Shown piece by piece: positions 4,566 to 20,189 of a DNA stretch of 20,310 nt. Each line of letters opens with the position of its first letter. Position 1 is the first letter of the stretch. Where the stretch lies: IMG/VR virus record IMGVR_UViG_3300006735_000347, positions 1 through 20,310 of that record, one strand, 5' to 3'. The notes below the pieces were generated by a model. The model worked only from the letters and a program-made list of their open reading frames with translations, was not told where the DNA came from and ran no database searches. The stretch is from a virus. The translations under genes and the position numbers were made by a program.

Positions 4566-7279
4566 GTGCTTTAAACCGCAGAATGTTTTCCAATCGAGAC
4601 GCTCGGGTCAAGCTGGCTAATATGGGCGGAATCATATCGTCTTCCCCAGAACTTCTTGGCGCGGCTCAGATGTACGCTGAAGGCGGGAATGCAAGTGCGC
4701 CAGAGGTTGAACAGTATGTTGCAGTTATACCGGGCGTAAACGAAAGTCGCCCGGTTCGGATGCGGGCTGATACCCTTGCACGGTTGCAGGAGATTGCCCC
4801 TGGGGTCATGGCTAAATCCTTTGTGATGGACAGCGCTATGGCGGTGCAAAATGGTATAGACGTTATGAATTTGCGCCCTGCCGACGCGTTTGTGGAACGT
4901 CAGCTTTCAGAACAAATGCCTGAGAGTGTGGCTCCGGCTTCGGACTCTCAGAGCGCAGGATATAGGCCCCCGAATATTGGCGCAACGGAGCTCAACACCC
5001 CCGCTATTCGCACTGCACTAGCAGAGCTATCGAACCCTGATCAAGGTGTTTCAGGGGTTCTTTCAAATATATCCAGAGAAACCCTTGAGCCGCCCATTAA
5101 CCTCCCAGGTATTTTGGCTTTAGCTCAGATGACCGACGATGAGAAAAATACTCTTTTTCAAAATCGCGAAGACTCTATGTTTTCAAATGTTAGCCCAAGT
5201 AGCCTTTCTTATGGTAAGCGTCTCCTTGAAACTCTTATTCCCGCATCTAGGCTAGTTACCTCTGCTGATAGTTCTGAGAATCCTGTTAGCACAGAAAGCG
5301 GTCTTGAGCGTTTTGAACGTCAGAACATAGAAGAAAACCCTGTATCTGCTGCCGCTAAAAGGGCTGAAGCAGCCGAGCTTTATAGCAAAGGCCAACGTAT
5401 TCGAAATAGAGTCGTGGATGAAGGTGTAAAGGCAGTAAATGATTTAGATGTTCTTTCAGGAAGGGGAGTAGACTTAGGTCTCGCGGCATCTTTGCTTGGC
5501 AACAAGTTTGCAAAAACGGGTGCGGGGGTTCTCAACCTTCCTATGGGAAGCATGGAGTATCTTCAAGATCGGAAAGAAACTTTCGACGAGCGCAAAGCCA
5601 GACTTGGCGGCGATGGTGATGTGCGATTATCTAATTTATTTTCGAAAGGGGATCCTGGTCCAAGTATCCAAGATCAAATCAGAGACGCTTCTCTGGCGGC
5701 TGACGCTAGAGGTTCAGGGGGAGATACCCTTGCAATGACGCCGACAGAATCAGAAATCCTGATTCAAGCTCGGAGGGCCGACGCTCCTGTGACGGCTACA
5801 GGCATAGGGCCAGGGCCGAATAGCGTCCCCACATCAGCGTCGATGGGCGCTCCTCGCTCCTCTGATCTTGCTGCCCCTAACGTAGCGGCTCTTAATCTTG
5901 GTGCTGGTATGGGTGATCCTGCACAACGGCCCTTGCTCCGAGATCCTCGCTTGGAAGCAGAACAAGATGAGGTATTTAAAGCCCGTCTTGAACAGGCTGA
6001 TCGAGACAACACGTTTTCTAAGAACAACCCAGTGTATTCCCGAGAAGAAATCGACGCTGCCAATCCGACCCTTGAAGCTAACCAAGAACTTTTCGAGAAA
6101 ATTCCAGCAGGGCGCCCACAAGAGGGTCTTCCTGTTACTGGTCCGGTACTGGAGTTTACAGAATCCAATCCTCTTTTGGTAGATCCAAGACTATCTATAC
6201 CTACGGGAAAGGACGCCTCTGGGGGTACGATGCCTGTTGCACCTCCTGTTGCAGATGATGCTAAACAATCAATTCAGGGAAACCCCAAGCAAGAGTACGT
6301 TCCCATACCCGAAGATGTTGAAACTTACGCTACAGGGGAAGCTGTACCCTTCAACATTTTTGATGGCCCAGATGGGGTCGGCAACGACCGAGGCCCAAAA
6401 CCATCTACGGAAGAGAGGAAAATGAAAGAGGCGCTTTTCGTTGCTCCGGAGAAGGAGCCAACCAGAAAGGAAAAAATAACAAGGGCAAATGAAGTAACTA
6501 ATAATACGCTCGGACCAGATGGTTTGAAACGACAGGTCGATAGTGTCACAGAAGAACTAAAGATGAATCCGACTGTTAATCCAAACACGATTACTTCTAA
6601 AGCAGTGTTAGATTCAGCAGGCATTGATACGAAAAATATGACAACCAAGGAGCGTATTCTCGCACAAAAGAAACTTCTAAGTGACCTCTTGGGTCGGACA
6701 GACGCGGATAAAAAAGAAGAGTTTTGGATGAACATGGCTATGATGGGATTTGCTATAGCCGCTGGAGAAAGCCCCAATGCGATACAAAACATTTCAAATG
6801 GATTACTTACAGGCGTAGCATCTATACAAAAAGGTAAGGCCGCAGATCGTAAGCGAGACGATGATCTCACTCTTGCTGCTTTTCAGAACATACTATCTGA
6901 AGATGCGGCAACAACGAAGTTCAATAGACAGGTGATACTTGCTGATAAACGTGCAGGAGCCAAATCGGCGTTCCCGACCGTAGATCGTCTTTGGTCTACA
7001 GTGTATAAAGCTAACATGGATTCGTATAGAGAAGCGGTAGAGGATGAGCGAATGTCCCGCGACGAGGCTCATAGACGATCTTCAGAAGCGGCTAGTCAGA
7101 TTTCCCCTGATTCACAGTTTGCTAAAAACTCAGCCTCTGTAACAGACTCTCAAGAAGCGGCTATCGCCGCCGCCCGCGCCGCCGCTCACGAAGCGGCTAA
7201 CGCTGCTGCCCTCGCCGCGGGGCAAAAAGAATACAAGGTGCCTGGAGATCCTAACTCCTATAAAACACAGGAGGTTTAG
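4562..7279 (+). CDS. Large low-complexity internal virion protein candidate, 905 aa
   Basis: A 905-residue protein in the internal-virion position. The N-terminus (MFSNRDARVKLANMGGI, then SPELLGAAQMYAEGG to residue 42) is a pattern I associate with structural proteins of uncultured marine phages. The middle (about 90-700) is polar, Pro/Glu/Asn-rich and probably disordered; it carries two PLL-x-DPRL motifs (457-464 and 537-544). A more ordered helical part follows: MNMAMMGFAIAAGESPNAI and the next 20 residues (about 723-758) could contact membrane. An Ala-rich helix (about 863-888) lies near the end. No catalytic motif, lysozyme or peptidase signature is visible. The start overlaps the previous stop (ATGA). 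The stop codon directly abuts the next ATG, and AGGAGG for the next gene lies inside this reading frame at 7270-7275. The internal-protein role is inferred from position and composition. Confidence 0.65.
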   Translation: MSALNRRMFSNRDARVKLANMGGIISSSPELLGAAQMYAEGGNASAPEVEQYVAVIPGVNESRPVRMRADTLARLQEIAPGVMAKSFVMDSAMAVQNGIDVMNLRPADAFVERQLSEQMPESVAPASDSQSAGYRPPNIGATELNTPAIRTALAELSNPDQGVSGVLSNISRETLEPPINLPGILALAQMTDDEKNTLFQNREDSMFSNVSPSSLSYGKRLLETLIPASRLVTSADSSENPVSTESGLERFERQNIEENPVSAAAKRAEAAELYSKGQRIRNRVVDEGVKAVNDLDVLSGRGVDLGLAASLLGNKFAKTGAGVLNLPMGSMEYLQDRKETFDERKARLGGDGDVRLSNLFSKGDPGPSIQDQIRDASLAADARGSGGDTLAMTPTESEILIQARRADAPVTATGIGPGPNSVPTSASMGAPRSSDLAAPNVAALNLGAGMGDPAQRPLLRDPRLEAEQDEVFKARLEQADRDNTFSKNNPVYSREEIDAANPTLEANQELFEKIPAGRPQEGLPVTGPVLEFTESNPLLVDPRLSIPTGKDASGGTMPVAPPVADDAKQSIQGNPKQEYVPIPEDVETYATGEAVPFNIFDGPDGVGNDRGPKPSTEERKMKEALFVAPEKEPTRKEKITRANEVTNNTLGPDGLKRQVDSVTEELKMNPTVNPNTITSKAVLDSAGIDTKNMTTKERILAQKKLLSDLLGRTDADKKEEFWMNMAMMGFAIAAGESPNAIQNISNGLLTGVASIQKGKAADRKRDDDLTLAAFQNILSEDAATTKFNRQVILADKRAGAKSAFPTVDRLWSTVYKANMDSYREAVEDERMSRDEAHRRSSEAASQISPDSQFAKNSASVTDSQEAAIAAARAAAHEAANAAALAAGQKEYKVPGDPNSYKTQEV
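5942..5961 (+). repeat. Exact 20-nt repeat, copy 1 (encodes DPRLEAE)
   Basis: This 20-nt sequence recurs exactly at 8699-8718 in the adjacent gene. In both places it is in the same frame and encodes DPRLEAE, and the following codons (gaa-caa versus gag-cag in context) keep the peptide DPRLEAEQ. In the 905-aa protein it is residues 461-468. Confidence 0.9.
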
Positions 7280-10200
7280 ATGGCTAAAGAGTTTGTGCCT
7301 ATTCTAGCGAATCGAGGTAATAATACTTTTGTTCCTATCCCAGCGAATCGAGTTGAGTCTGAAACCGAAGAAGAATCTGACCAGACGGTGATTGGTTCTA
7401 TTGCTCGGGGTACGGGCGCTGGGCTTGTTAACATAGCTCAAGGGATCTCGGAACTTGGCGCTGCGGGTTTAGAGGCTACAGATTTAGTAGAAGAGGGATC
7501 TCAAGAAGCTACAACTAAAGCCTTTGAAGATTTTAAAACATCTTTTGGTTTGACCCCCGAGAGGACTGCGGGGAAGATCACTGAAACCATTGTAAACTAC
7601 GCCACTCCAGGGCTCGGAGTATTTAGCTGGGTGTCTAAAGCAGACAAGGCCCGCAGAGCTTTAAAGTCTGGCACTGCGATTGCCGATGCCCGTACAAGGA
7701 TTGGTAGGTCAGCGCAAGCTTTTGGCAGAACTAACCTTGGTAAAGCCACGACTAGCACTGGTGTAGGACGTGCAGGTTTGACCACTATAGGCACTGGCGT
7801 AGCTGATGTCTTGGTGTCTCCTAGCACTAACACAACATTGGCTGATAGCTGGGATGCCATGCCTGATGAGTTGCGAACTGAAGACGAAGAAGGTCTTACA
7901 GGCATGGACTTGTCGGGAGTTAGACTTAGAAATAAGTTTAGACTTGGAGTCGAAGGTATGATGTTTAACGCCGCAGGGGAAGCCGTGCTTCCTGTTGCAG
8001 GGGCGTCTATTAAAGCTATTGGGAATGTCCCTGGTGTTCCCGCGTTAGCTCGTGGGATATCAAACGGGTTGGATTTCCTAGGAGACGGAATAAAAAACAT
8101 ACCGTATGTTGGGCCTCGGGTCCAAAAGTTTTTGACTCCTGACGGGCTTGCCCCTTCAGAGGTCATGACTGCCGTAAGAACGGCAGACGGGATTACAGAA
8201 AACGAACAAAGAATCGCTGCTGGTCATCTTAGAGATTACGATAGAGCCACAAAGAAACTTATCAGTTTGCAAAAAGTTCCAGGGCTTGGGAAAGCTAGAG
8301 CTCAGAGAACACACAATGAGACATTTGACTTTCTTACAGGCGAGATGACTCCAGAAGATTTTAGTAAAGCGCATGGGAAAAAAGCTTTAAAAGCAGCGGA
8401 GGCTATGCGTGATCAAATCGTTCGTCTGAGCGACACGATGAAAAAATCCTTACGGGACTCTAATTTATCTGAGGAGGAAGTAGTTAGAATTGCGGGTGTG
8501 TTTGAGGCTAACCAAGGGCAATACTTGCGTAGGCTTTATGAAATTAACCTTCGCCCAGAAAAGTTCAGAGGGTTGATCGTAGAAAAAATGCCTAACTACA
8601 AAGGCGCGTTAGCCGAGGTAGAACAGGCAATAATAAACAAGAACAGAAGGTTAGACACACTTCCGGAAGGCCACCCTGGTCGAGCTCAGATTGTAGGGGA
8701 TCCTCGCTTGGAAGCAGAGCAGATGATGCAAAAACGGTTTAACCAAGTGCTGGAAAATCAAGGGGTGCTGGCTCCGGATGCAAAACAATCCAATGTCTAT
8801 TTGGCAAAGGGCGCGGAAGAAGTTCGAAACAAAGCCCGTGGAGATTTGTTTAAGCTGTCTACCAACATGTTGGAAAGCAGGTCTGGTATTCTTGACGAGT
8901 CTCCAATGTTCAGAGAAATGATGGGAGAGATCAAAGACCCCAGAGACGCGTACCTCCACACTATTAGCGACATGACAAACACTATTGTGTCGCAGCGTCT
9001 GTATCAACAGATACTGGATGATGTTGGATCAACAGGGGTTAATGACGGACTGGCTAGACTTCGCAGTGGTCAAGGGGCTCGGCCTATTATTGAGGGAGCG
9101 GATATAGCGGACGACTCTCCTCTTTCCAATCAGATAAAAGGATACGGTTATACTAAACTATCCGAGTTTGTGCCTGCCGAGAAAGCAGCGGACGATGCCG
9201 CAGAAGGTATGGCGCCTAATATTGAAGGAGCGTTTGGCGGAAAGTATGGCGCCTTGTCTGGGAAGTTTGTACCCAATGAAATCTACAACTCTTTGACCAC
9301 ACCTATCCGGGCTAACAACGCTGCCCAAGAGGCCCTTGCTGTAGCATTGCAGCTTAAAGGCTTGTCTCAGATGTCCAAGACAGTTCTGAACCCGTTGTCT
9401 CAGGTCCGCAACTTCTTATCAAACACATTTGTTATTGGTGCCAACGGTCTCCTTGGCAGGAACATGGGTGTGTTTGAAAGCGCAGAAGTGCTGACATCTG
9501 GTCTTGGTAGCCCAGAGCAGTACAAACTTTTGAAAGCTATGTCTGAAGAAGGAGCTATCGGTCAGAACATTCAACTCAACGAACTGCAACAACTGCTAAA
9601 AGAGCAGACCGAAATAGGCGTCTCGGCTCGGTTACGACAAGGTGGAGAAGCTTTCAAGAAAAGCGCATTAGGAGCCCCTGTTAGATTTATGCAGAAGACC
9701 TATCAACTAGGGGATGATTACTGGAAGGTGGTCGGTGCTCTTGGGGAGAAAGCTAGATACGGAGCAGCATTGCGCAAGGCTGATTTAGATATTGATGCCT
9801 TAGATGATGCAACGCAACAAGCACTTGTCAACGTGGGTATTGTTCCTCGAACCTCGTCCATTGCGGGTACGGACTTTGGCAATCTTCTAGCAACAGATAT
9901 CGTCAAGCAGACCATGCCAACATACTCAATGGTTCCAGAAGCAATAAAATCTTTGCGCCGGATTCCCGTTATGGGTAACTTCATGGCATTTCCAGCGGAG
10001 ATCATCCGTACATCAGGGAACATTGTGAACCGTTCAGTTAAGGAAATGGGGATAACAGCGAACGACCTGATTAAGGCTGGGATAAAAGACCCTGCTCAAG
10101 CTAGGATTCTGGCTCGTCAAATTAGGGGGATAGGTGCGCAACGGCTTACTGGGTACATCTCAATGGCAACTGTTGCGCCTGTGGCAATGCGAGATGCGGC

Positions 10201-11476
10201 GCATAGTGTGCTAGAAATAACCCCTGAAGAAGAACAACTTCTTGAAGAGAACAAACCATACTGGTCTTTGGGCAGCATAATGATGTACCTGACAAAACCC
10301 AAAGATGGCAAAGCTGAGTACGCGGATTTATCTTACATGCTCCCTTACGATTTCATGCTTGCTCCAGCCCGCGCTGCGTTGGAGGTATACAGCCGTACTG
10401 GAGAAGTGTCTGACAGCACCTCTGAGCAAATATTTAAGGGGGCGTGGGAGGGTTTTAAAAAGTTTGCCGAACCATTTGCGTCGGAGGCTCTGGCAACTGA
10501 ACGCTTGCTTGATGTTACCATACGTCAAGGTAAGACCCAGACAGGCTCTAAGATATATGAACCTGCTGAAATGTGGGGGGATAAGTTTTCCAAGTCCATG
10601 ACACACATGGTTGGAGCATTCATGCCTGGGATCTTGGATCAACTTGTTACCGTTAAAAGTGGGAAGTTTGAACCGGGTCGTGCTACTCGCGCAGCCGTGG
10701 GACTACCGTCTGCATCCGGAGACCCATACATTGTTGCGGAGGAAGCTGGATCTATGCTTACAGGTATCCGCCCCATGAAACTTAATGTATCTCGCAGTCT
10801 TGGATACGACGGGGGAGCGTATCTTGCAAATAGAACATCAGCATCATCGATCTTTACTAGAGTTGCCGATGACAACGATGTAACAGAACAAGACGTTCTC
10901 GACGCGTATGTACAAGCTAATGAGGCTAGAAGACGGCACCAGGGTGAATTGAAAGTTCAGATCGACAAGGCTATGGCAGCAGGCATGAGCCGAGGAGAAG
11001 TTTTTCAAGCTTTTAAACAAACGGGTGTCACTAGAAAAGAACTAAGAAACATTTTAAATAATCGTTTTGATCCCATCAAGGTTAGCCGGAGCTTGATACG
11101 AGAAGTCGCCCGAGAGGTAAACGTCAAGAGAGAAAATCGTATTCTTAAACGTGTACCCACTCAAGCTATTAATGCGGTTCGCCGCACCTATATCAACACT
11201 CCTATTATTACGACAGAATCAGAAACAAATATCGCGCCACCAGTACAATCTGGTTTTGTTCCCATACTTTCCAACAGACCAACCCAACCTGTCGCGACCA
11301 CACCAGCACCTCAACCTGCTGAATCCTTCCTTGATCGAGCAACAGGCGGGATCACAGACATGGCAGGGGACACGTTCCAGAGGATACAATCCATAGCGCC
11401 CACGATACTGGGTGGAGATATTGCGACGCAGTCTGCTAACACAGAGATACTACGCCGCAGTCAGCAAGGTCAGTGA
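7280..11476 (+). CDS. Giant internal virion / DNA-ejection protein candidate, 1398 aa
   Basis: A 1398-residue, mainly helical protein, the last gene of the virion operon, occupying the place and size class of large podovirus internal proteins such as T7 gp16. Two FVPI-x-x-NR motifs open it (5-12 and 17-24), and a third lies at 1326-1333 before a Pro-rich linker and a C-terminal helix. Residues about 40-75 are Gly/Ala-rich (GSIARGTGAGLVNIAQGISELGAAG split by polar residues). The segment SQVRNFLSN (near 9400-9425) and PVMGNFMAFPAEIIRTSGN (near 9965-10020) are motifs I recall from giant virion proteins of marine phages. A hydrophobic stretch around 10150-10200 (SMATVAPVAM) may contact membrane. 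I see no lysozyme, transglycosylase or protease active site. AGGAGG at 7270-7275 is the ribosome binding site. The gene converges on, and overlaps by 7 nt, the end of the replication operon. Function is inferred. Confidence 0.68.
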   Translation: MAKEFVPILANRGNNTFVPIPANRVESETEEESDQTVIGSIARGTGAGLVNIAQGISELGAAGLEATDLVEEGSQEATTKAFEDFKTSFGLTPERTAGKITETIVNYATPGLGVFSWVSKADKARRALKSGTAIADARTRIGRSAQAFGRTNLGKATTSTGVGRAGLTTIGTGVADVLVSPSTNTTLADSWDAMPDELRTEDEEGLTGMDLSGVRLRNKFRLGVEGMMFNAAGEAVLPVAGASIKAIGNVPGVPALARGISNGLDFLGDGIKNIPYVGPRVQKFLTPDGLAPSEVMTAVRTADGITENEQRIAAGHLRDYDRATKKLISLQKVPGLGKARAQRTHNETFDFLTGEMTPEDFSKAHGKKALKAAEAMRDQIVRLSDTMKKSLRDSNLSEEEVVRIAGVFEANQGQYLRRLYEINLRPEKFRGLIVEKMPNYKGALAEVEQAIINKNRRLDTLPEGHPGRAQIVGDPRLEAEQMMQKRFNQVLENQGVLAPDAKQSNVYLAKGAEEVRNKARGDLFKLSTNMLESRSGILDESPMFREMMGEIKDPRDAYLHTISDMTNTIVSQRLYQQILDDVGSTGVNDGLARLRSGQGARPIIEGADIADDSPLSNQIKGYGYTKLSEFVPAEKAADDAAEGMAPNIEGAFGGKYGALSGKFVPNEIYNSLTTPIRANNAAQEALAVALQLKGLSQMSKTVLNPLSQVRNFLSNTFVIGANGLLGRNMGVFESAEVLTSGLGSPEQYKLLKAMSEEGAIGQNIQLNELQQLLKEQTEIGVSARLRQGGEAFKKSALGAPVRFMQKTYQLGDDYWKVVGALGEKARYGAALRKADLDIDALDDATQQALVNVGIVPRTSSIAGTDFGNLLATDIVKQTMPTYSMVPEAIKSLRRIPVMGNFMAFPAEIIRTSGNIVNRSVKEMGITANDLIKAGIKDPAQARILARQIRGIGAQRLTGYISMATVAPVAMRDAAHSVLEITPEEEQLLEENKPYWSLGSIMMYLTKPKDGKAEYADLSYMLPYDFMLAPARAALEVYSRTGEVSDSTSEQIFKGAWEGFKKFAEPFASEALATERLLDVTIRQGKTQTGSKIYEPAEMWGDKFSKSMTHMVGAFMPGILDQLVTVKSGKFEPGRATRAAVGLPSASGDPYIVAEEAGSMLTGIRPMKLNVSRSLGYDGGAYLANRTSASSIFTRVADDNDVTEQDVLDAYVQANEARRRHQGELKVQIDKAMAAGMSRGEVFQAFKQTGVTRKELRNILNNRFDPIKVSRSLIREVAREVNVKRENRILKRVPTQAINAVRRTYINTPIITTESETNIAPPVQSGFVPILSNRPTQPVATTPAPQPAESFLDRATGGITDMAGDTFQRIQSIAPTILGGDIATQSANTEILRRSQQGQ
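8699..8718 (+). repeat. Exact 20-nt repeat, copy 2 (encodes DPRLEAE)
   Basis: Second copy of the 20-nt sequence at 5942-5961, in the same reading frame of the 1398-aa gene, residues 474-481 (DPRLEAEQ). The flanking protein sequences are otherwise different: the 905-aa protein continues DEVFK, this one continues MMQKR. Confidence 0.9.
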
Positions 11477-11676
11477 TCGGCAGGGGTTGTTGTTACCCCC
11501 ACACCTCCGAACAAACGGACTAGCTCATCTGCGCTCGTCTCCATGTCGTTAAAGATTTCTTGATCGTCTACCATCGCAGCGATAGATAGCGCGTCGCCTA
11601 TGAAATCCATCAGCGCCATAACCTGCATCGGGTGCATTTGGCGTAAGCCAAGTGTCTTCATGTTCTTCTCAATCAT
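11470..11676 (-). CDS. Small protein at the end of the replication operon, 68 aa
   Basis: A 68-residue protein translated from the ATG at 11676-11674, which overlaps the PolA stop as ATGA and is preceded by GGGGAG at 7-nt spacing. A longer frame from a TTG at 11691 is possible but has no such support. The N-terminal half is Met-rich and helical (MKTLGLRQMHPMQVMALMDFIGDALSIAAMV) and the rest is acidic (DDQEIFNDMETSADELVRLF) with a Gly/Val/Thr tail. One hydrophobic helix (about residues 17-35) is too weak to call a membrane span. The function and family are not recognised. The translational coupling suggests expression with PolA, but the position does not prove a replication role. Confidence 0.65.
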   Translation of the reverse strand: MIEKNMKTLGLRQMHPMQVMALMDFIGDALSIAAMVDDQEIFNDMETSADELVRLFGGVGVTTTPADH

Positions 11677-13643
11677 TCTATTTCTCCCCAATCATCCTTA
11701 ATATCTACATCGATTTTTGATGGGACCTTGAGCGGAATCCCTGTTTCCATAATCTCCTTTATTCTAGCAGTCTGCTCTGGACTATCTATGTTGAAGCATA
11801 ACTCGTCATGAACCGTGAGCATAGGAGTAAGACCCTCCTTGTAGCAATCAAGCATCGCCTGTTTGGTTTGGTCGGCTGCTGATCCTTGGATCAAACGGTT
11901 GAGTGCCTTGTATGTAAACGCTCGTTTAATGGCTGACCCATACTCCTTGTGAGCGGCGTCGTGGGCCATAGGCTTGCCTACTCCAAACTTCTTGGGCTCC
12001 CACATAGGAAACCTACACTTACGTCCCAGAAGGGTGCGTATGTGCCCGTTCTCGTCGGCTCTCTTGGTCGCCATATCGGCAAGCTGCTTAACAAACGGAA
12101 CCTTATTGCGGTGCCTATAGATCAAATCCTTGGCGTCATCCGGAGGGATTCCTAGCTGGTCGGCAAGCTTTGCTACGCCCATGCCGTACATGATCCCCAG
12201 GTTCACGGTCTTAGCTTGCTTACGCGTGATCCCTGCAAGGTCTGCAACCATCTGGTGTAGATCAACGTCGCCGCTATTGAACTCCTCTACTACATCATCG
12301 ACCACATGGCTCCGCATTGCGGAAGGAACGCTTGCTGCAAAGTGCACCAAGAGCCGCGGTTCTTGGCTCGAGTAGTCAAACGATCCCCACTTCATGCCAT
12401 CCTCTGGAATAAACAAACCTCGGATCATCTTCTTGATGTCTGGATCCCGAGCGGGGATCTGCTGTAGGTTGGGGTTGGATGAAGAGAACCGCCCTGTTAC
12501 CGTACCGCCCTCGTCCCTACGTGTAGAGTGGAGCTCTGTGTGGATGCGTCCGTTGTGCTCGTGCCGTAAGATGCTGTCGATAAACGTAGCGTCTGCCTTA
12601 TCAAACTCCCGCAGCTTAACCAGCGTTTGGCATATCTCAGCGGGGTGATCATTGAGCCAAGACTTTGTAAAGGACGGAGCGTCTCCAGAACGGCTGACTT
12701 CTTTTTCCTCAATCGTGCCGTTCTCTAGTTTTACGTCTTCAGTCTGTATCTTGAGCGGTGTTCTTGGGTACTCCATGCCCAGCTTGTCAAACATTTTAGC
12801 TATGGATGCAGAGGCCCAGATGTCCACCTCCATCCCTGCTTCTTTCTCTATCTTACCGCGCAGTAAATTGGACTGCTTGCGGATCAGCTTCTTGTTCTTT
12901 TCTGCTTTGTCCAGGTCAACACGTACACCGTTGGTCCGCATGTCCAACATGCAGGGTATTAAACCGTTCTCAATGTCCCATATGTGCCAGAGTTCTTCCT
13001 CATCGAGCCTTACCTTCAGCGCATCCCACAGCTTGAGTGTAGCAACCGCGTCCTGTTCGGCGTATGCCCCGACGTACTTAGGTGGAAGCTTGTACATTCC
13101 TGACTTAGGGTCAACGCCCCAGTCCTTCCCAGCGGCTTGCAGGAGCCTCTCGTTCTTACGCATGGAAACAAAGTCACGAGCCATCGCATCGAGGCCAAAG
13201 GACCAGCGGTTCTCGTCCACCAGTGCGCCTGAGATCATCGTGTCAATGATCCGACCCTTGACCTCTATGCCCTCGGCTCTCAGCCAGCCAGCGTCGTAGG
13301 TTGCGTTGTGCATAATTACGTTCATCTCAGCTACAGACAACTGTTTCTTGAGCCAGCGCATGGTGAACTTTGGATCTAGGTTGTGTGAGTTCTCGTGTCG
13401 GATAGGAAAGTACCCCTGGTATTCCCCCGCTGCCACAGCAATCCCTATTATGTGACCGTCCTTACGGGCCCACCCAGGTCCGAGGGTCTTGATGTTAGGG
13501 TCGTAGGTCTCCAGATCAATGGCGACCTCCCTGTATCCGGTTAGGTCTGGGTATTCTGTTGGGATGTTCCAGTCTTGATCTATTAGATCCAGTTCGTTCT
13601 TGATCTGGTGATGCAGGGCGCTGCCAAATAAATTACTTTGCAT
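11673..13643 (-). CDS. polA: Family A DNA polymerase with 3'-5' exonuclease, Leu762-type
   Basis: A 656-residue replicative DNA polymerase: a proofreading exonuclease followed by the polymerase domain, with no 5'-nuclease domain, as in T7 gp5-like phage enzymes. Exonuclease motifs are complete: ExoI D43-x-E45 (AIDLETYD), ExoII HNATYD (112-117) and ExoIII YAEQD (194-198). Polymerase motifs: TVTGRFSSSNPNLQQIP (381-397), motif A DYSSQEPR (423-430) with catalytic D423 and steric-gate E428, motif B RKQAKTVNLGIMYG (474-487), motif C VHDE (611-614). In motif B, Leu482 replaces the usual Phe (E. coli Phe762). A short polar insertion (about 294-322) lies between the domains. All catalytic carboxylates are present, so the enzyme should be active. 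The start overlaps the DUF6378-like gene by 11 nt and the stop overlaps the 68-aa gene (ATGA). The family assignment is secure. Confidence 0.97.
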   Translation of the reverse strand: MQSNLFGSALHHQIKNELDLIDQDWNIPTEYPDLTGYREVAIDLETYDPNIKTLGPGWARKDGHIIGIAVAAGEYQGYFPIRHENSHNLDPKFTMRWLKKQLSVAEMNVIMHNATYDAGWLRAEGIEVKGRIIDTMISGALVDENRWSFGLDAMARDFVSMRKNERLLQAAGKDWGVDPKSGMYKLPPKYVGAYAEQDAVATLKLWDALKVRLDEEELWHIWDIENGLIPCMLDMRTNGVRVDLDKAEKNKKLIRKQSNLLRGKIEKEAGMEVDIWASASIAKMFDKLGMEYPRTPLKIQTEDVKLENGTIEEKEVSRSGDAPSFTKSWLNDHPAEICQTLVKLREFDKADATFIDSILRHEHNGRIHTELHSTRRDEGGTVTGRFSSSNPNLQQIPARDPDIKKMIRGLFIPEDGMKWGSFDYSSQEPRLLVHFAASVPSAMRSHVVDDVVEEFNSGDVDLHQMVADLAGITRKQAKTVNLGIMYGMGVAKLADQLGIPPDDAKDLIYRHRNKVPFVKQLADMATKRADENGHIRTLLGRKCRFPMWEPKKFGVGKPMAHDAAHKEYGSAIKRAFTYKALNRLIQGSAADQTKQAMLDCYKEGLTPMLTVHDELCFNIDSPEQTARIKEIMETGIPLKVPSKIDVDIKDDWGEIE

Positions 13644-13968
13644 TCTTCGCTCTCATTCTATCGATGATCTCCGAAACACTGGCCTTGTCCCGAGCCGTGT
13701 GCTCTGCTCCCAGGGCACTATACCCACACTTATCCACCCACGAATCCTGATGATCGATGTTTTCAACAAGCCTCGCGCTCTTTACCCAGTCCATCATCAA
13801 TGCCACATGCGATGGGGTCAGGTGACCGTGGCTCTTTAATGCGCCGCTGATAATAATATTCCAGCCTGAAGCGATGCGGCTGTGGTTATCGTATGCATCT
13901 CCGTAGTCCTGGGCCCTCTGACCATTGATCAACTCTTTGGCTGTATCTAAGACTTCATCACGTTTCAT
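13633..13968 (-). CDS. DUF6378-like phage protein, 111 aa
   Basis: A 111-residue, mainly helical soluble protein. Residues 1-30 (EVLDTAKELINGQRAQDYGDAYDNH), 50-67 (LTPSHVALMMDWVKSARL) and 76-92 (SWVDKCGYSALGAEHTA) follow the pattern of the DUF6378 family: an 'RAxDYG' motif, an 'HV/DVALMM' helix and a 'D-x-WVD-x-x-GYxALG' motif. That family is common in phage genomes near nucleotide and replication genes and has no established activity. Its conserved Asp, Glu and Lys residues recall all-alpha nucleotide-hydrolase-like folds, but I cannot show this. The start is an ATGA overlap with the SF1 helicase stop, and the end overlaps the PolA start by 11 nt, so it is coupled to both. Confidence 0.8.
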   Translation of the reverse strand: MKRDEVLDTAKELINGQRAQDYGDAYDNHSRIASGWNIIISGALKSHGHLTPSHVALMMDWVKSARLVENIDHQDSWVDKCGYSALGAEHTARDKASVSEIIDRMRAKNAK

Positions 13969-15494
13969 AGCGTGTACCTGTATTTATTGTTGCTCTGTAG
14001 AATGTACAACGTGTGCCTTGCTCTGGTCACCCCGACATAGAACGCTCGATGCTCATCGTCTGGATGGTCACTGTTCACACACGCTGCGGTGGACGCCGTA
14101 TATACGACGCAGTTATCATCTTCCCCGCCCTTCATAGCATGGAAGGTAGACAGTTTGATACGTGGCTCTGATAGAAGATCGTCTCCTCTTCGCATCATAG
14201 CCGCGATATACTCTTTCTCGGCCTTGCCAATCCGCAACACCTCCGACGCAGACTGATCTGCCCCAACCAACAAGCCGTGTTCTTTTTGCAGTTGCTCCAT
14301 GGTGAGCTCCGAATCAGGAGCTAACACATCTAACATCTGTGTGGATCCCCGCTTAACAACAGCGTTCTGCCCCTGCTTTGGAACAGATGAGTAGAAGTCC
14401 TTGATCCTTTGTAACGACACCGTCTTGTCAGCGCAAAGATCCTGCCAAGTAAATATGTTTGAAACCAAGGTAGCCGACACACTGGGCCGTCCCTTGATTG
14501 AATACTTAAACCCTAGTTTCTTTATGTGCTCCGCCAAGTCAATGACGTAGCTGTTAGTCCGAGCCATGATGGTCCACGATCCCTCGTACAAGGGGATATC
14601 ATCCAAGTGATAGACAAACTCCACCACCCCCTCCTCGTCCCTGGGCTCAAACTCTTTCTCATGCCGTTCGGATATACGTTCGGATATGTCGTTCGCCAAA
14701 CGATGCACGGCCTTGGGAATACGGTAGGATTTCTCCAGAACTTTTACCTTATCCGTACTCTTGTTAAACAGTTCGACCTCTACACCTGTCCACCTGTGGA
14801 TAGCTTGGTCATCATCTCCTGCAATAAACACCTGATCGGCATTGTCCGCTATCTTCTCAGCCATCTGCCATTGCAGCGGAGTAAAGTCTTGAGCCTCGTC
14901 GATAAACATGAAGTCCAAGTTTGGCACCTCTCCCAACGGTATGTACTTCTCAATCATATCCACGAAGTCGTACTTGTTAGTCGCCGACTTGTACTCTTCG
15001 ATCTGCTTGGATAACTGCACAAGCTTCGGGAAAAACAAATCTCGGTCACCCGCATCATTGAACTCACGGTCCAGATCAACCATGCGCAGCCGCGCTCGGT
15101 TTTCCAGTTGCAGATATTTGGACCCTGATCCTCCAATCGTAGGTAGGGACAAGCCGTCCTCTAGGGACATCCGCATCTTGCCCTCAAACGTCAGTCCAAT
15201 CTCACGCCCGATGTTGTCGTAGTCCTCTTTGTTCATGATATCTTGAGGCTGCAACCCCAGACCGTGGAACCCGAACGAGTGACTGGTCTTCATGTAAGGA
15301 AAGTTCTTCGGCTCCAAGTTAAACTCTGCACAAGCTCTCTCCACCATTTCTTCAATGGCTTTGCGGGTAAACGAGATCACCCCAATCCGTGATGGATGAG
15401 TGCCGTTATCCAACGCCTCCTTGATCCTCTGGATTAAATAGTAGGTCTTGCCCGTCCCTGGGGGACCCAGAACCAGCTGCGCTTTCGGTATCAT
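13965..15494 (-). CDS. SF1 (UvrD/Rep-like) DNA helicase, 509 aa
   Basis: A 509-residue ATP-dependent DNA helicase of superfamily 1A. Motifs in order: Walker A GPPGTGKT (10-17), Ia ISFTRKAIEEM (40-50), Walker B FIDEAQDF (197-204), III AGDDDQAIHRWTG (225-237), IV-like SYRIP (256-260), V STFHAMKGGEDD (449-460), VI VGVTRARHTLYI (487-498). It is shorter than UvrD (about 720 residues): the 1B and 2B accessory regions are reduced, nearer to phage Dda-like or compact UvrD-like enzymes. The family unwinds DNA 3'-5' (UvrD) or 5'-3' (Dda); polarity cannot be read here. It probably serves replication or repair of phage DNA. The start overlaps the AlpA-like gene stop (ATGA) with AGGGGA upstream, and the end overlaps the DUF6378-like gene (ATGA). 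Confidence 0.93.
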   Translation of the reverse strand: MIPKAQLVLGPPGTGKTYYLIQRIKEALDNGTHPSRIGVISFTRKAIEEMVERACAEFNLEPKNFPYMKTSHSFGFHGLGLQPQDIMNKEDYDNIGREIGLTFEGKMRMSLEDGLSLPTIGGSGSKYLQLENRARLRMVDLDREFNDAGDRDLFFPKLVQLSKQIEEYKSATNKYDFVDMIEKYIPLGEVPNLDFMFIDEAQDFTPLQWQMAEKIADNADQVFIAGDDDQAIHRWTGVEVELFNKSTDKVKVLEKSYRIPKAVHRLANDISERISERHEKEFEPRDEEGVVEFVYHLDDIPLYEGSWTIMARTNSYVIDLAEHIKKLGFKYSIKGRPSVSATLVSNIFTWQDLCADKTVSLQRIKDFYSSVPKQGQNAVVKRGSTQMLDVLAPDSELTMEQLQKEHGLLVGADQSASEVLRIGKAEKEYIAAMMRRGDDLLSEPRIKLSTFHAMKGGEDDNCVVYTASTAACVNSDHPDDEHRAFYVGVTRARHTLYILQSNNKYRYTL

Positions 15495-15706
15495 AATGCT
15501 TTTCCCCTAGGTCTGGTATTCACCCAGTCCTCAACCTCGGACAAAACCCATCGGCTCGATGACCTCCTGTTTGTCTCGTCCCCTAAAACGATTGGTTTCG
15601 GAAAATCCTCATGTGTTTGGGCCAGCTTATAGACGTAGGATCGAGACACACCCAGTAGGTCCGCAACCTCTCCTATCCTAAGTAGTCGATTAGAATGGGA
15701 TGTCAT
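15491..15706 (-). CDS. AlpA/excisionase-like winged-helix DNA-binding protein, 71 aa
   Basis: A 71-residue basic protein with an N-terminal MerR/AlpA-type helix-turn-helix: RIGEVADLLGVSRSYVYKLA (10-29), followed by FPKPIVLGD (35-43), a wing RRSSSRWVLSEVEDWV (47-62), and a basic tail. The arrangement 'FPKPI..G...RWxxxEVxxWV' is the AlpA/excisionase signature; such proteins act as transcriptional activators or as recombination directionality factors. An open frame extends 37 codons upstream inside the primase gene, but the ATG at 15706-15704 has AAGGAG at 7-nt spacing and begins right at the domain, so I start there. It overlaps the primase end by 17 nt and the helicase start by ATGA. With no integrase in view, a regulator is as likely as an excisionase. 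Confidence 0.85.
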   Translation of the reverse strand: MTSHSNRLLRIGEVADLLGVSRSYVYKLAQTHEDFPKPIVLGDETNRRSSSRWVLSEVEDWVNTRPRGKAL

Positions 15707-17216
15707 TTGAAATCTCCTTAACAGGCAATTCGGTTTCATCTTCTTGGAAGGCTGGGACATACCAACACCGTATGGTTGTCCGCTGGCCTTTCTTTTTAGT
15801 AACATGTTGCTTTCCACTGTCGCCGCCCATGTCGCGTATCATCTGGATGATTTGAGCTCGGGTCTGACCAACAAACCTGCGGTGGTGCAGAAACTCCAAC
15901 AGACCTTCCAACTTAAACTTCGTCACACCACCATCGGTCCACGGCTTATTCATCTCAATCTCTTCGGGAGCCATGGCACGAATGTGACTGGTGCAATAGG
16001 AGAACAGGTGCTCTTTGAACTGACCCGCAATCGTTTCCTCATACGGAACATCGATGTACGTTGCTTGGCTCATCAAACCGTTGACCATCTTCTGCCAATT
16101 CTGTGGTTTGGTGGTCGGCGGCATGAAGTTGCATTGCTCCATACATGCTCTCTGCCAGAGCGTCTGGTTCTGTAGTTGCTCCGAACTCAACTGAATCCGT
16201 AGTCCGTTTACATCCATGAAGTACAACCGCGGCTCCGACAACATGATCGTCAACCCACCAACCTGTGGTGCATCGGGAGAGTCATCGGTGATACCATGCT
16301 TTGCAACCACACAAAGAGATGGGTCACAGTAGGACTTGAAAGGCTCGTCTTTACAGGTATACCCCCAGTCCTTCTTGTCATGCTGCTTGATCACAGTCAG
16401 CACCTCTGAGGATGGAAGGGGCGGAGAGAATAACGTGCGGTTGTATTCTTCCAGGGAAGCTTGCCAACTATCCGGAAACTTCTTCTTGCAGTACACACCC
16501 ATAAAGAACAGCAGCTTGTTCCTGGGTTCGCTCTGTGGTCCATCGGAGAAAATGTTGCGGATGCATGGGGGACCATCAGAGAAATGCTTACGCGTTTGCG
16601 TTGTAGATCTTATGGCTTCCAGATCGGACAGGTTTACCCTGGCTTTATTCGCCGCAACTAAGAACTCATCGAGTTCCATGGACTCTGTCTTCCGGTCGTA
16701 GCAAAACCGTTGCGGGGTTTCTGCATCAAAGTATGGCATGTTTATGAAGTTGCCCACGTCTCCTCGCTCTACGATGATTGAGTCCTGCTTGGGGAATATC
16801 TCTGCTCCGCTGTGACCCAGCATAATCGCCATCTCTGTCAGATACTCTCTAGCTACAGACGCTTGCTCCCACTCTTTAAGGAATAGATACAGGTGGGCGC
16901 CGCCGGACTTGGACCTACACTGAAGCAGCGGAAGCTTTAGCTTTTGGATCCTGTCTTGTAATTCTTTTTGATTTAAATCGTACACATCAATGTCGATAGC
17001 CCCGAACCGACACGCGTTGTCCTCGTTGATAGGGATCGCGCCAACACCCTGCTTCCCATCGATGTGATCTTGTACAAGCTTCTCGGTCAGAGGCTCTCGG
17101 ATAATCTTACTTTTTGAATCTGCTTTTCCATTGCGACCCACTCTCCCAACAGAGGTGGTGCCATGCGCGTTCTTTGCGCCTGCAAAAACGGCAAGCAACT
17201 TCTTTGCCTGTGACAT
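15690..17216 (-). CDS. Archaeo-eukaryotic-type (AEP, TOTE-like) DNA primase with SSB-like tail, 508 aa
   Basis: A 508-residue primase candidate. The N-terminal AEP catalytic core shows GAIDIDVYD with the D75-x-D77 metal pair, then CRSKSGGAHLYLFL (100-113), whose GGxH (105-108) is the nucleotide-binding motif, and GAEIFPKQ (137-144), typical of the TOTE/phage AEP group. After it, C218 (PPCIRNIF), C288, C297 and C302 could form a four-Cys metal or Fe-S site like that of primase large-subunit domains. The C-terminal region (about 320-480) is not assigned; no helicase Walker A is present, so unlike T7 gp4 this is not a primase-helicase fusion. The last residues NDIPF resemble the bacterial SSB tail. 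GAGGAG lies 6 nt before the ATG. It would start DNA synthesis for PolA. Confidence 0.87.
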   Translation of the reverse strand: MSQAKKLLAVFAGAKNAHGTTSVGRVGRNGKADSKSKIIREPLTEKLVQDHIDGKQGVGAIPINEDNACRFGAIDIDVYDLNQKELQDRIQKLKLPLLQCRSKSGGAHLYLFLKEWEQASVAREYLTEMAIMLGHSGAEIFPKQDSIIVERGDVGNFINMPYFDAETPQRFCYDRKTESMELDEFLVAANKARVNLSDLEAIRSTTQTRKHFSDGPPCIRNIFSDGPQSEPRNKLLFFMGVYCKKKFPDSWQASLEEYNRTLFSPPLPSSEVLTVIKQHDKKDWGYTCKDEPFKSYCDPSLCVVAKHGITDDSPDAPQVGGLTIMLSEPRLYFMDVNGLRIQLSSEQLQNQTLWQRACMEQCNFMPPTTKPQNWQKMVNGLMSQATYIDVPYEETIAGQFKEHLFSYCTSHIRAMAPEEIEMNKPWTDGGVTKFKLEGLLEFLHHRRFVGQTRAQIIQMIRDMGGDSGKQHVTKKKGQRTTIRCWYVPAFQEDETELPVKEISNDIPF

Positions 17217-17279: not shown

Positions 17280-18083
17280 TCAAAACGGGATTTCGTCCTC
17301 GTTTTTGTCAGAAGTACTGTCACGGGAGGAGGAGTCTCCCTCTTCTGGCGCAGCCTTTACTTCGCCCGCAGCGATACTCTCGCGGAAGGCTTTTGCCTCA
17401 AGCATAAGATCGCGGTTCTGAACCAACCCAACCTTTTCAATATGGTAGTTGAACCACGTACCTTGGTCATTGCTCTCCTCAACAGTGGTAAACTTCCACT
17501 GAGTGGCAAACAACGGAGGCAAAACCATCTGCCCTGTCTTTGGGTGCTTGATCTTTTGCATCGCAATCTGGGTCTTCCAACGACGGCTGACCTTCAACTG
17601 GCTAGACTTCATGTCGATCACAACAGGTTGTGTGATCCCGTCCTCACCAATCACCAAGCAGAAGTGCTGATCCGACTTGACCAACTCGTTGCCGTTAGGA
17701 AGAATTTCCTTGGCCCCTGATCGTGTAGTCTTTTGCAAGACAGGGTCAGTTGCAGGGATCTCTCCTTGAAATCCTCCACCTTGGTCACGCGGAATAAACT
17801 CCAAATACTTGACGGTCTGGAAGCAAGGCACAACAACGATGCCCTTCTCTCCAGTGAACAGTTCCATGGTGACGTTGTTAAACATATCACCCTGCTCTGA
17901 CCCATGAATGTAATCAGATTCACGCTTCTTGAGTTGAGGGGACATTGCTTGCAGGATACGAACGAACGGTATCAGCATCTCGGAACTGTCAAAGGACGCG
18001 CCTTCACCAGCAAACTCTAGGATGTCGTCCATGACATCTGTGCTTAACTCTGCACTTTTTTTCTTAGCAACTGCGTTACCCAT
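17280..18083 (-). CDS. Probable single-stranded DNA-binding protein, 267 aa
   Basis: A 267-residue protein of a phage family I recall being annotated as ssDNA-binding. An N-terminal helical part (10-28) precedes IPFVRILQAMSPQLKKRESDYIHG (38-61). Beta-rich segments follow (GIVVVPCFQTVKYLEFIPRD 81-100; SDQHFCLVIGED 137-148; PVVIDMKSSQLKVSRRWKTQI 153-173; QWKFTTVEE 195-203). A Ser/Glu-rich disordered tail (244-262) ends in DEIPF, closely resembling the DDDIPF tip of E. coli SSB that recruits replication proteins. The frame is open upstream to 18284, but GGAGG lies 7 nt before the ATG at 18083, which follows the previous stop by 1 nt (TAATATG), so this start is preferred. The adjacent primase and polymerase fit a single-strand coating role at the fork. 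The assignment is probable, not proven. Confidence 0.72.
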   Translation of the reverse strand: MGNAVAKKKSAELSTDVMDDILEFAGEGASFDSSEMLIPFVRILQAMSPQLKKRESDYIHGSEQGDMFNNVTMELFTGEKGIVVVPCFQTVKYLEFIPRDQGGGFQGEIPATDPVLQKTTRSGAKEILPNGNELVKSDQHFCLVIGEDGITQPVVIDMKSSQLKVSRRWKTQIAMQKIKHPKTGQMVLPPLFATQWKFTTVEESNDQGTWFNYHIEKVGLVQNRDLMLEAKAFRESIAAGEVKAAPEEGDSSSRDSTSDKNEDEIPF

Positions 18084-18084
18084 A

Positions 18085-18642
18085 TTACTTCCTCCGAATT
18101 TGTGCTCTGCTTGAAATGAATGCCCCGAACATATCGAGGTCAACTGGTTTGCCTTCAACGACACGCTCTTTGATGAACGCTTTAAGTGTGGAAGGGTGAA
18201 CGTGGGTCTTGGTCTTCGGATCAAAGCCACGATCTTGTAGCAGTCCGACAACGTCTCCCGCCACGTTATCCTCGCCCTTACCAAAGGACACAGTTATGTC
18301 GTTCTTAATAATGTCGTCAAGGCGGTTGTCGCGAAGCCAGTTAAAAGCCTCCTCTTTCCGCGCAACTGGTATGGACGCAGAGACAATCATCTTGCGCTCA
18401 ACGGTACACCCGTCAACATCAACGCGCTCGACACCCATCTCATCCATCAATGCAGGTATGTTCTCGACCGAGAGCTTGTGCTTCTCCTGCACTAAAGATT
18501 TGATGTGGGCCTCTGCATCTCCGATCTCTTGCTCAACTTTGCGCAAGGATCGAACCAGTTGACTAAGCTGTTTCCCAGTACCAGAATCAATAGACGCTAG
18601 GGCCTCTGATTCGTCGTATAAGTCTTCGAATATATCACTCAT
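18085..18642 (-). CDS. Conserved phage protein of unknown function, 185 aa (first gene of the replication operon)
   Basis: A 185-residue protein. The N-terminus is acidic (MSDIFEDLYDESEA), and a heptad-like helix at about 25-60 (KQLSQLVRSLRKVEQEIGDAEAHIKSL with following residues) is probably a coiled coil. After ENIPALMDEMGVERVDVDG (60-78) come a beta strand (CTVERKMIVSASIP), ARKEEAFNWLRDNRLDDIIKNDITVSFGKGED, and a C-terminal part HPSTLKAFIKERV...DMFGAFISSRAQI. I have seen this order in many phage genomes immediately before an SSB-like gene, without an assigned function. GAGG at 9-nt spacing precedes the ATG, and the start sits at the edge of the divergent promoter region, so this is the operon's first gene. 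A role as a partner of the SSB-like protein is inference from position only. Confidence 0.78.
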   Translation of the reverse strand: MSDIFEDLYDESEALASIDSGTGKQLSQLVRSLRKVEQEIGDAEAHIKSLVQEKHKLSVENIPALMDEMGVERVDVDGCTVERKMIVSASIPVARKEEAFNWLRDNRLDDIIKNDITVSFGKGEDNVAGDVVGLLQDRGFDPKTKTHVHPSTLKAFIKERVVEGKPVDLDMFGAFISSRAQIRRK

Positions 18643-18719
18643 AAAGTTTTTCCTCTTCAGGGTTGATTTGTACGAACGCCGTATGCTATCCGTAACGAAG
18701 ACAATAGTGGAGGTATGTG
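18643..18719. promoter_or_regulatory. Divergent intergenic region, probable promoters for both replication operons
   Basis: The only divergent gap in the window: 77 bp between the 185-aa gene (leftward) and the SNF2-type helicase (rightward). It must hold, or lie downstream of, the promoters for both directions. Candidate elements are weak. On the + strand, TTGATT (18663-18668) lies upstream of TATGCT (18682-18687), but with a short 13-bp spacing. On the - strand, TTACGG and TACAAA are 17 bp apart but match the sigma-70 consensus poorly. The sequences may instead be for a phage-specified or activator-dependent polymerase. The rightward ribosome binding site GGAGG is at 18709-18713. Confidence 0.5.
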
Positions 18720-20189
18720 ATGGTTGTCAACTACAAATATAAGCTCCCGCCGTTTAATCACCAGGCAGATGCTTTGGAGTACGGCTGGGACAGGAATGAG
18801 TTCGGTCTGTTCATGGAGATGGGCACTGGGAAGTCAAAAGTTTTGATCGATAACATGGGTATGTTGTATCAAACTGGTAGGATTAATTTCGCTTTGGTCA
18901 TCGCACCCAAGGGTGTTTACCGCAACTGGGTAGCCAAGGAAATCCCCGAGCATATGTCCGACGACATCCCCCATCGCGTCATCCGTTGGGTGTCTGGTCC
19001 TAACAAAAAACAAACCGAGGAGATGCGCTCAGTCAAAGATAAATTCAACGGCCTAACTATATTTGTCATGAACGTGGAGTCGTTCTCCTCGATCAAGGGG
19101 AAGAATGCTGGGGAGTGGATGTCTCGTGCGCTTGGCAAGAACGGCCTGATCGCAATCGACGAATCAACAACTATCAAGAACCATAAAGCCAAGCGCACTA
19201 AAGCTCTAATGAAAATCGCTGCGGGGTTCAAGTATAGAAGACTCTTGACAGGCTCACCTATAACAAAAAGTCCGATGGATATCTATTCGCAGTGCGAGTT
19301 CCTCCGCCCTGGGCTGCTAGGTTACGAGTCATACTACGCATTCCAGGGACGATACGCTGTAGTGCAGCGCAAAACCATGGGCCAGGCAGCGTTCCAACAG
19401 ATCATCGGGTTCAAGAACATCGATGAACTGACTGGCAAGATCGACAGGTTCTCCTTCCGCGTACTAAAGAAAGACTGCCTCGATCTCCCCGACAAAATCT
19501 ACACCGCTAGATATGTCGGCATGACCGCGGAGCAGTTCAAGATGTACGAGGATGTACGGCGCCACGCTATGGTTCTGCTTGATGATGGCGAAATGGTCAC
19601 CGCACCTGCCGTGATTACCCAGATGCTCCGGCTACAACAGATCATGTCCGGTCATTTGAAGACCGACGACGATGAGATGATGTACTTCCCATCCAAACGA
19701 ATGGATGCTCTGACCGAGATCATGAACGAGCATGACGGTAAGGCTATCATCTGGTCACGGTTCCGCTATGACATCAAACAGATTACGCAAATGCTAAACG
19801 ATAAGTTCGGGGCAGGTTCCGCTGCGGCATACTTCGGGGACACAACCGACGACGACCGCAACAACATCGTCAAGAATTTCCAGAACCCTGATCACCCGCT
19901 CCGGTTTTTCGTAGGCAACCCAGCTACCGCTGGCTATGGTCTGACTTTAACCGAGGCAAACCTCGTGGTATACTACGCCAACGACTTCAACCTGGAGACG
20001 CGCATTCAATCAGAGGATCGAGCGCATCGAATCGGGCAGAAGAACAACGTAACATACATCGATCTGATCTGCGAGGGCAGCATCGATGAACGCATAGTCA
20101 AGGCCCTCCGTACCAAGATCAACATTGGGGCCAAGGTGCTAGGTGAAGAGGCAAGAGAATGGCTAAGTCTAAAACCCACGATGAAATAA
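18720..20189 (+). CDS. SNF2-type SF2 DNA helicase/translocase, 489 aa
   Basis: A 489-residue SNF2-family ATPase. An N-terminal Q-like segment PPFNHQADALEYG (10-22) precedes motif I MEMGTGKSK (32-40), Ia VIAPKGVYRNW (60-70), motif II IDEST (146-150; the usual DEAH is altered to DEST), motif III LLTGSP (175-180), motif IV-like KAIIWSRF (341-348), motif V ATAGYGLTLTEA (402-413) and motif VI QSEDRAHRIGQ (430-440). Both RecA-like lobes are complete. Such phage enzymes are ATP-driven duplex DNA translocases; some remodel forks or displace bound proteins (T4 UvsW is a functional parallel, not an identified homologue). The frame is open from GTG at 18717, but the ATG at 18720 has GGAGG at 6-nt spacing and is preferred. 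It is transcribed away from the replication operon and overlaps the next gene by 31 nt. Confidence 0.93.
   Translation: MVVNYKYKLPPFNHQADALEYGWDRNEFGLFMEMGTGKSKVLIDNMGMLYQTGRINFALVIAPKGVYRNWVAKEIPEHMSDDIPHRVIRWVSGPNKKQTEEMRSVKDKFNGLTIFVMNVESFSSIKGKNAGEWMSRALGKNGLIAIDESTTIKNHKAKRTKALMKIAAGFKYRRLLTGSPITKSPMDIYSQCEFLRPGLLGYESYYAFQGRYAVVQRKTMGQAAFQQIIGFKNIDELTGKIDRFSFRVLKKDCLDLPDKIYTARYVGMTAEQFKMYEDVRRHAMVLLDDGEMVTAPAVITQMLRLQQIMSGHLKTDDDEMMYFPSKRMDALTEIMNEHDGKAIIWSRFRYDIKQITQMLNDKFGAGSAAAYFGDTTDDDRNNIVKNFQNPDHPLRFFVGNPATAGYGLTLTEANLVVYYANDFNLETRIQSEDRAHRIGQKNNVTYIDLICEGSIDERIVKALRTKINIGAKVLGEEAREWLSLKPTMK

Follow-up and report, generated by a model that had tools for sequence, protein, structure and literature searches.

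The primase encoded in the marine phage DNA analysed here, a stretch of 20,310 nucleotides that we call the window, ends in a short peptide resembling the C-terminal tip of bacterial single-stranded DNA-binding protein (SSB), and a second tip of this kind is carried by the product of the gene directly upstream, a Pam3_Gp34-like protein that is a candidate phage SSB. Among the 17 called genes of the window, these two alone bear such a tip. Judged from its evolution, the primase tip is under strong selection at the amino-acid level and is very probably a real docking peptide or tag. We tentatively propose that both tips dock at one shared site in the replisome, most likely on a phage-encoded protein. 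The features that carry this proposal are:

15690 to 17216, minus strand: AEP-type primase of 508 amino acids (sequence, PF22548, AF2 model, alignment)
15690 to 15707, minus strand: C-terminal tip NDIPF of the primase with its stop codon (sequence, conservation, low-confidence AF2 tail)
17280 to 18083, minus strand: Pam3_Gp34-like protein of 267 amino acids, candidate phage SSB, directly upstream of the primase (PF23977, E 1.8e-65)
17280 to 17300, minus strand: second SSB-like tip, EDEIPF with stop codon, of the Gp34-like protein, after a variable linker that is predicted to be disordered (pLDDT below 50)

The preliminary description of a 508-residue AEP primase ending in NDIPF is borne out by the translation of 15690-17216, which closes with PVKEISNDIPF and a stop. 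By profile and fold the enzyme is an archaeo-eukaryotic primase (AEP/Prim-Pol), for which primer synthesis is predicted. PF22548 (AEP-TOTE) matches residues 37-163 in a Pfam profile search (E 4.5e-16), a PHROG search assigns the protein to phrog_21866 (primase), and a Foldseek search with its AF2 model found the Prim-Pol domain in the CRISPR-associated Prim-Pol structures 7nqd/7nqf (TMt 0.68-0.71, prob 1.00). The metal-binding acidic pair and the conserved His motif (DxD, SxxxH) are present, with D75, D77, S104 and H108 invariant in 52 diverse homologues; four cysteines of the middle region (218, 288, 297 and 302) and the terminal F508 are likewise invariant in this set. The protein is thus laid out as an N-terminal Prim-Pol domain, a middle Cys region, a folded C-terminal part and a flexible stretch of about 20 residues, the last ~18 of which are modelled with low confidence (pLDDT 52-58, a proxy for disorder).

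Scans of IMG/VR yielded several hundred relatives. The clade of the window (C1, 42-100% identity) contains 123 non-redundant complete primases. The preliminary description had proposed to check a docking tail by the conservation of the IPF end in close homologues, and the outcome is decisive: all 123 proteins have PF as their last two residues, preceded in 121 of them by D or E at position -4, while position -3 is I in 90, V in 17 and P, A, T or S in the remainder. Because this check was passed, a docking tail is well supported. Homologue counts are phylogenetically non-independent, and the numbers of changes on a tree are the safer figures. On a 121-taxon tree, for which the C-terminal 70 columns were left out of the alignment, Pro-2 has no amino-acid change against 19 codon changes and Phe-1 none against four, whereas each of the linker positions -6 to -18 has changed its amino acid 15-40 times. 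The primase tail therefore has the two hallmarks of the bacterial SSB tip, a terminal acidic-I-P-F that is kept while the linker varies, and a position within a low-pLDDT segment. Given the residue frequencies of the window, a C-terminus should read [DE][IV]PF with a frequency of 2.5e-5, and 2 of the 17 called genes do so; an origin of the tip by chance is ruled out by this comparison, by the changes on the tree and by a census of open reading frames in relatives.

The tip of the Gp34-like protein (phrog_2402, function unknown in PHROG), which the preliminary description did not mention, reads KNEDEIPF. In C1, 112 of 115 Gp34-like proteins end in PF after a variable linker, and in the AF2 model the last 20 residues have pLDDT values below 50, again a proxy for disorder. 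The census covered reading frames of at least 60 amino acids in two long relatives of 55.8 kb (G001) and 45.6 kb (G002); PF ends were found in 2 of 245 and 2 of 187 frames, in both cases the primase and the Gp34-like protein and no other. At position -3 the raw counts for an I-to-V association between primase and Gp34-like protein in C1 are 81:0 versus 10:21, which we do not count as proof of co-evolution because they trace to very few branches of the tree. The family itself is widespread, with 503 phage records matching PF23977/phrog_2402.

We propose the Gp34-like protein as a candidate for the phage SSB because no match to the canonical SSB family was found in 18 relatives, and its gene neighbourhood and tail point the same way. 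The PF00436 profile matched none of these 18 records, which include the complete 61.5-kb genome of phage DSL-LC04, so that a canonical SSB encoded elsewhere was not found in them; in a control the same search matched in 10 of 14 named genomes. For the Gp34-like protein itself PF23977 (Pam3_Gp34) is the sole Pfam match, PF00436 does not match, and neither NCBIfam nor a sequence search of the PDB gave a match. The core is predicted to be beta-rich (AF2, pLDDT 84.8). Foldseek comparison of this model with the PDB returned no significant match (best E 0.027), the weak ones including bacterial SSBs, other OB-fold proteins, PrgE and MCM/CST chains, and among the viral structures of BFVD no match annotated as SSB was found.

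Both genes lie in a replication cluster with the order SNF2 helicase (divergent), gp33-like, Gp34-like, primase, AlpA-like HTH, UvrD-like helicase, DUF6378 and PolA; the annotation of phage DSL-LC04 has much the same order from gp33-like to PolA. The further members considered here are:

18717 to 20189, plus strand: SNF2-type helicase, candidate tip receptor, without tip
18085 to 18642, minus strand: gp33-like protein (PF23984, DUF7307) of the same cluster, without tip
15491 to 15706, minus strand: AlpA-like HTH gene, 71 amino acids (PF05930), with its ATG inside the codons of the primase tip (A-ATG-ACATCCCATTC)
13965 to 15494, minus strand: UvrD-like helicase, candidate tip receptor, C-terminus YRYTL, without tip
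11673 to 13643, minus strand: family A DNA polymerase with 3'-5' exonuclease domain, candidate tip receptor, C-terminus WGEIE, without tip

A tip on UvrD, PolA, gp33 or SNF2 is ruled out by their C-termini. Outside the cluster, the window encodes a 905-aa protein without PHROG match (4562-7279) and, following it, a virion-type protein of 1398 aa whose PHROG match is only partial (phrog_22602; 7280-11476), both of which are probably podovirus internal or ejection proteins. Prophage copies, sought in genome contigs to learn the host, were not found.

In more distant relatives the tips drift. In C2 (DSL-LC04-like, ~37% identity to the window) 66 of 70 primases end in SPF, on tails that are net basic, and 59 of 68 Gp34-like proteins end in xPF. 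The corresponding ends are E(N/H/D)F and TPY in C3 (023Pt-like) and [EQ]NIV-type and [QE]DIV in C4 (HTVC027P-like); they are diverse in C5 (ct3Et533-like), mostly acid plus aromatic on both proteins. Acinetobacter and Providencia phages have SEF or AEF on the primase and GEF, DEY or SEF on the Gp34-like protein. Our prediction, set beforehand, that phages with AEF/SEF primases have acid-plus-aromatic Gp34-like ends held for SH-Ab 15497, JeffCo and Kokobel2 and failed for PSA28; a scan with the Kokobel2 primase as query returned no matches. In the record of ct3Et533 (MW202510, L083:3050-3886) the Gp34-like gene lies on the plus strand just before the primase, where a minus-strand reading frame is annotated, likely a misannotation.

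Several phages carry the tip on one of the proteins only. The primases of Nanhaivirus (L092, L089, L090) are longer and lack it, a natural tip-less comparison, and the Gp34-like proteins there end in EVPF or EIPF; HTVC023P likewise has the tip on the Gp34-like protein and not on the primase. In the cultured Dinoroseobacter phages R5C and R26L the primase is without the tip. Gp34-like proteins of Pbunavirus-type relatives end in EEF, EQF or DNF, and no AEP primase is annotated in the regions read. This survey shows that the Gp34-like tip is the more widespread and that the primase tip is confined to some clades. A P[FY] tip is found on both proteins in 16 of 42 clusters at 60% identity, on neither in 14 and on one only in 12 (6 and 6), an association with a Fisher p of 0.012 when phylogeny is ignored, compared with p 0.18 for the terminal-aromatic class alone. 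The two tips are associated, not strictly coupled.

SSB-like tips also occur on other phage proteins. In Vibrio phage K300 the Gp34-like protein has no aromatic end, and a separate tip-bearing protein of 159 aa is annotated as SSB; since the E. coli-type SSB of NCBIfam matches it over the C-terminal 42 residues only, the annotation of this type of protein may rest on the tail. Phages with PurZ/Z-genome genes encode such a protein, of 99-159 aa and adjoining PolA, that ends in DDDLPF, DDDIPF or DDGIPF (L420:5878-6177, L421:5337-5660, L423:5368-5694, L417:8146-8625). The two of these that were compared with Pfam gave no match, and a small PolA-adjacent tip protein of this kind was absent from 17 C1/C2 records in which it was sought.

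What do the tips dock on? According to the model that we prefer, both would ride on flexible linkers and, with the terminal Phe-carboxylate, the Pro and the acidic residues as contacts, bind one common replisome site, most likely on a phage-encoded polymerase or helicase. The primase and the putatively ssDNA-coating Gp34-like protein would share this receptor or hand it over, in the manner of the T7 gp2.5 and gp4 tails on gp5. We infer the common receptor, its phage origin and the hand-over, and give the model as a whole a chance slightly below even. One argument is that the tips of the two proteins depart from the bacterial type in pairs, SPF occurring with xPF, ENF with TPY and NIV with DIV. 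This drift would favour a shared docking site in the phage replisome at least as much as host SSB partners, and the partner of the primase tip may well be phage-encoded. There are also observations that speak against a shared phage receptor: the C1 tip is exactly bacterial, a likeness that docking inside the phage replisome alone would not call for, and the pairing is imperfect, as seen in the 12 of 42 clusters with a single tip.

The exactly bacterial type of both C1 tips, [DE]IPF with an acidic flank, is what one would expect if they bound the host readers of the SSB tip (DnaG, PriA, chi, RecQ, ExoI), thereby recruiting or titrating them; the E. coli tip DDDIPF has more than 14 binding partners including DnaG (PMC5872125). 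Host mimicry is possible, though we regard this reading as rather unlikely. The phage's own adjacent Gp34-like protein bears the same tip, and some homologues, those of Nanhaivirus, have no primase tip at all. Moreover, the tips of related clades (KKGSPF, QIENF, STPY, KENIV/KQDIV) no longer resemble DIPF and are, to our knowledge, unlike any known bacterial SSB tip. The SSB-tip pocket of DnaG is basic (K447, R452, K518; PMC5872125), and the net basic tails of C2 argue for a poor fit to it. Since the tips of both proteins drift from DIPF and C2 primase tails are net basic, the host SSB pockets are probably not the target for the family as a whole.

A further reading is that the Gp34-like protein itself receives the primase tail, in the groove that its own tail would fill, so that the primase would be recruited to coated ssDNA and the coat more easily displaced. 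The two genes are adjacent and their tips co-occur, and there is a parallel in another AEP, human PrimPol, which an acidic C-terminal motif brings to a basic cleft in the OB fold of an SSB (PMC5457501). Furthermore, the acidic tail of T7 gp2.5 competes with ssDNA for the protein's own binding surface, according to a title cited in PMC5686142. We nevertheless consider such docking improbable. The Gp34-like protein is only a candidate OB-fold SSB whose model has no significant fold match in the PDB, and the Nanhaivirus primases lack the tip despite a tipped Gp34-like protein, so that docking of this kind is not obligatory.

An acidic tail with a terminal Phe on a DNA-binding enzyme, with no defined position in the AF2 model, could alternatively regulate the primase intramolecularly by occupying its own DNA-binding surface, the likeness to SSB tips being a convergence on a basic groove. 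We hold this to be very improbable, as it leaves unexplained the twin tip on the neighbour and the restriction of the tip to these two proteins.

An explanation of the tip as a by-product of the AlpA-like gene, whose start it overlaps, has next to no likelihood: an out-of-frame ATG does lie within the last five codons of 90 of the 123 C1 primases (in the window it is the HTH start) and, by overlapping there, accounts for the usual N/D/Y at position -5, but an origin of the DIPF core from it is refuted by the 33 primases without this ATG, all of which end in PF, by the free choice of codons in C1 (Pro through all four, Phe through both) and by the Gp34-like gene, which bears the same tip without such an overlap. 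The AlpA-like gene, which also overlaps the start of the UvrD-like helicase gene, is kept in many relatives, and its product is possibly a regulator within the replication operon.

Going further than the preferred model, the AEP primase and the Gp34-like protein might form a replisome pair with a lineage-specific tip at a shared site, PF23977 being an unrecognised SSB family and the tip of the window's lineage, whether convergent with the bacterial SSB tip or derived from it, also engaging host SSB partners; this wider picture is doubtful. Should the tail act in the proposed way, it would couple primer synthesis with the coating of ssDNA in phages that have no recognised SSB and would provide a testable function for PF23977, a large family of unknown function. 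With their several diverged tip pairs, the phages would also offer a natural system of two proteins in which to study how the specificity of tips and pockets evolves, and would allow one to ask whether phages tap the SSB interaction hub of the host. In the open-access papers searched, no AEP primase with an SSB-like tip was found described, and this speaks weakly for novelty.

The catalytic AEP domain is shared with CRISPR-associated Prim-Pol (CAPP) and the TOTE AEP (PF22548; 7nqd/7nqf fold), which differ in their C-terminal part, and we know of no SSB-like tip on them. The tips in the window resemble the E. coli SSB C-terminus (DDDIPF) in the acidic residues and the Ile-Pro-Phe at the extreme C-terminus after a variable flexible linker, but are located on a primase and an uncharacterised Gp34-like protein instead of a PF00436 SSB. 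An SSB-like tip that docks on a phage-encoded partner is found in phage HK620, where NDYPPF of the SSB binds and recruits Sak4 (PMC5928155); there, however, the tip belongs to a genuine SSB and binds a recombinase of the single-strand annealing type, and no primase is involved. Human PrimPol is similarly an AEP primase that reaches SSB-coated ssDNA through an acidic/aromatic motif in its C-terminal region, with D519 and F522 as key residues and the basic cleft of RPA70N as target (PMC5457501), yet this motif is internal and not a free C-terminal IPF, and RPA is eukaryotic. In T7 the acidic tails of gp4 bind basic patches on gp5, a family A polymerase (PMC12593628), and the acidic tail of gp2.5 is likewise implicated in binding this polymerase. 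By homology the two systems differ: T7 has a TOPRIM primase fused to a hexameric helicase and a T7-type SSB, whereas the window has a lone AEP primase, an unrelated candidate SSB that matches only PF23977, and an IPF tip. They are alike in that the primase of the phage ends in a tail and its SSB probably does so too; with the Gp34-like protein taken as SSB, the window has terminal-aromatic tails on primase and SSB, just as T7 does.
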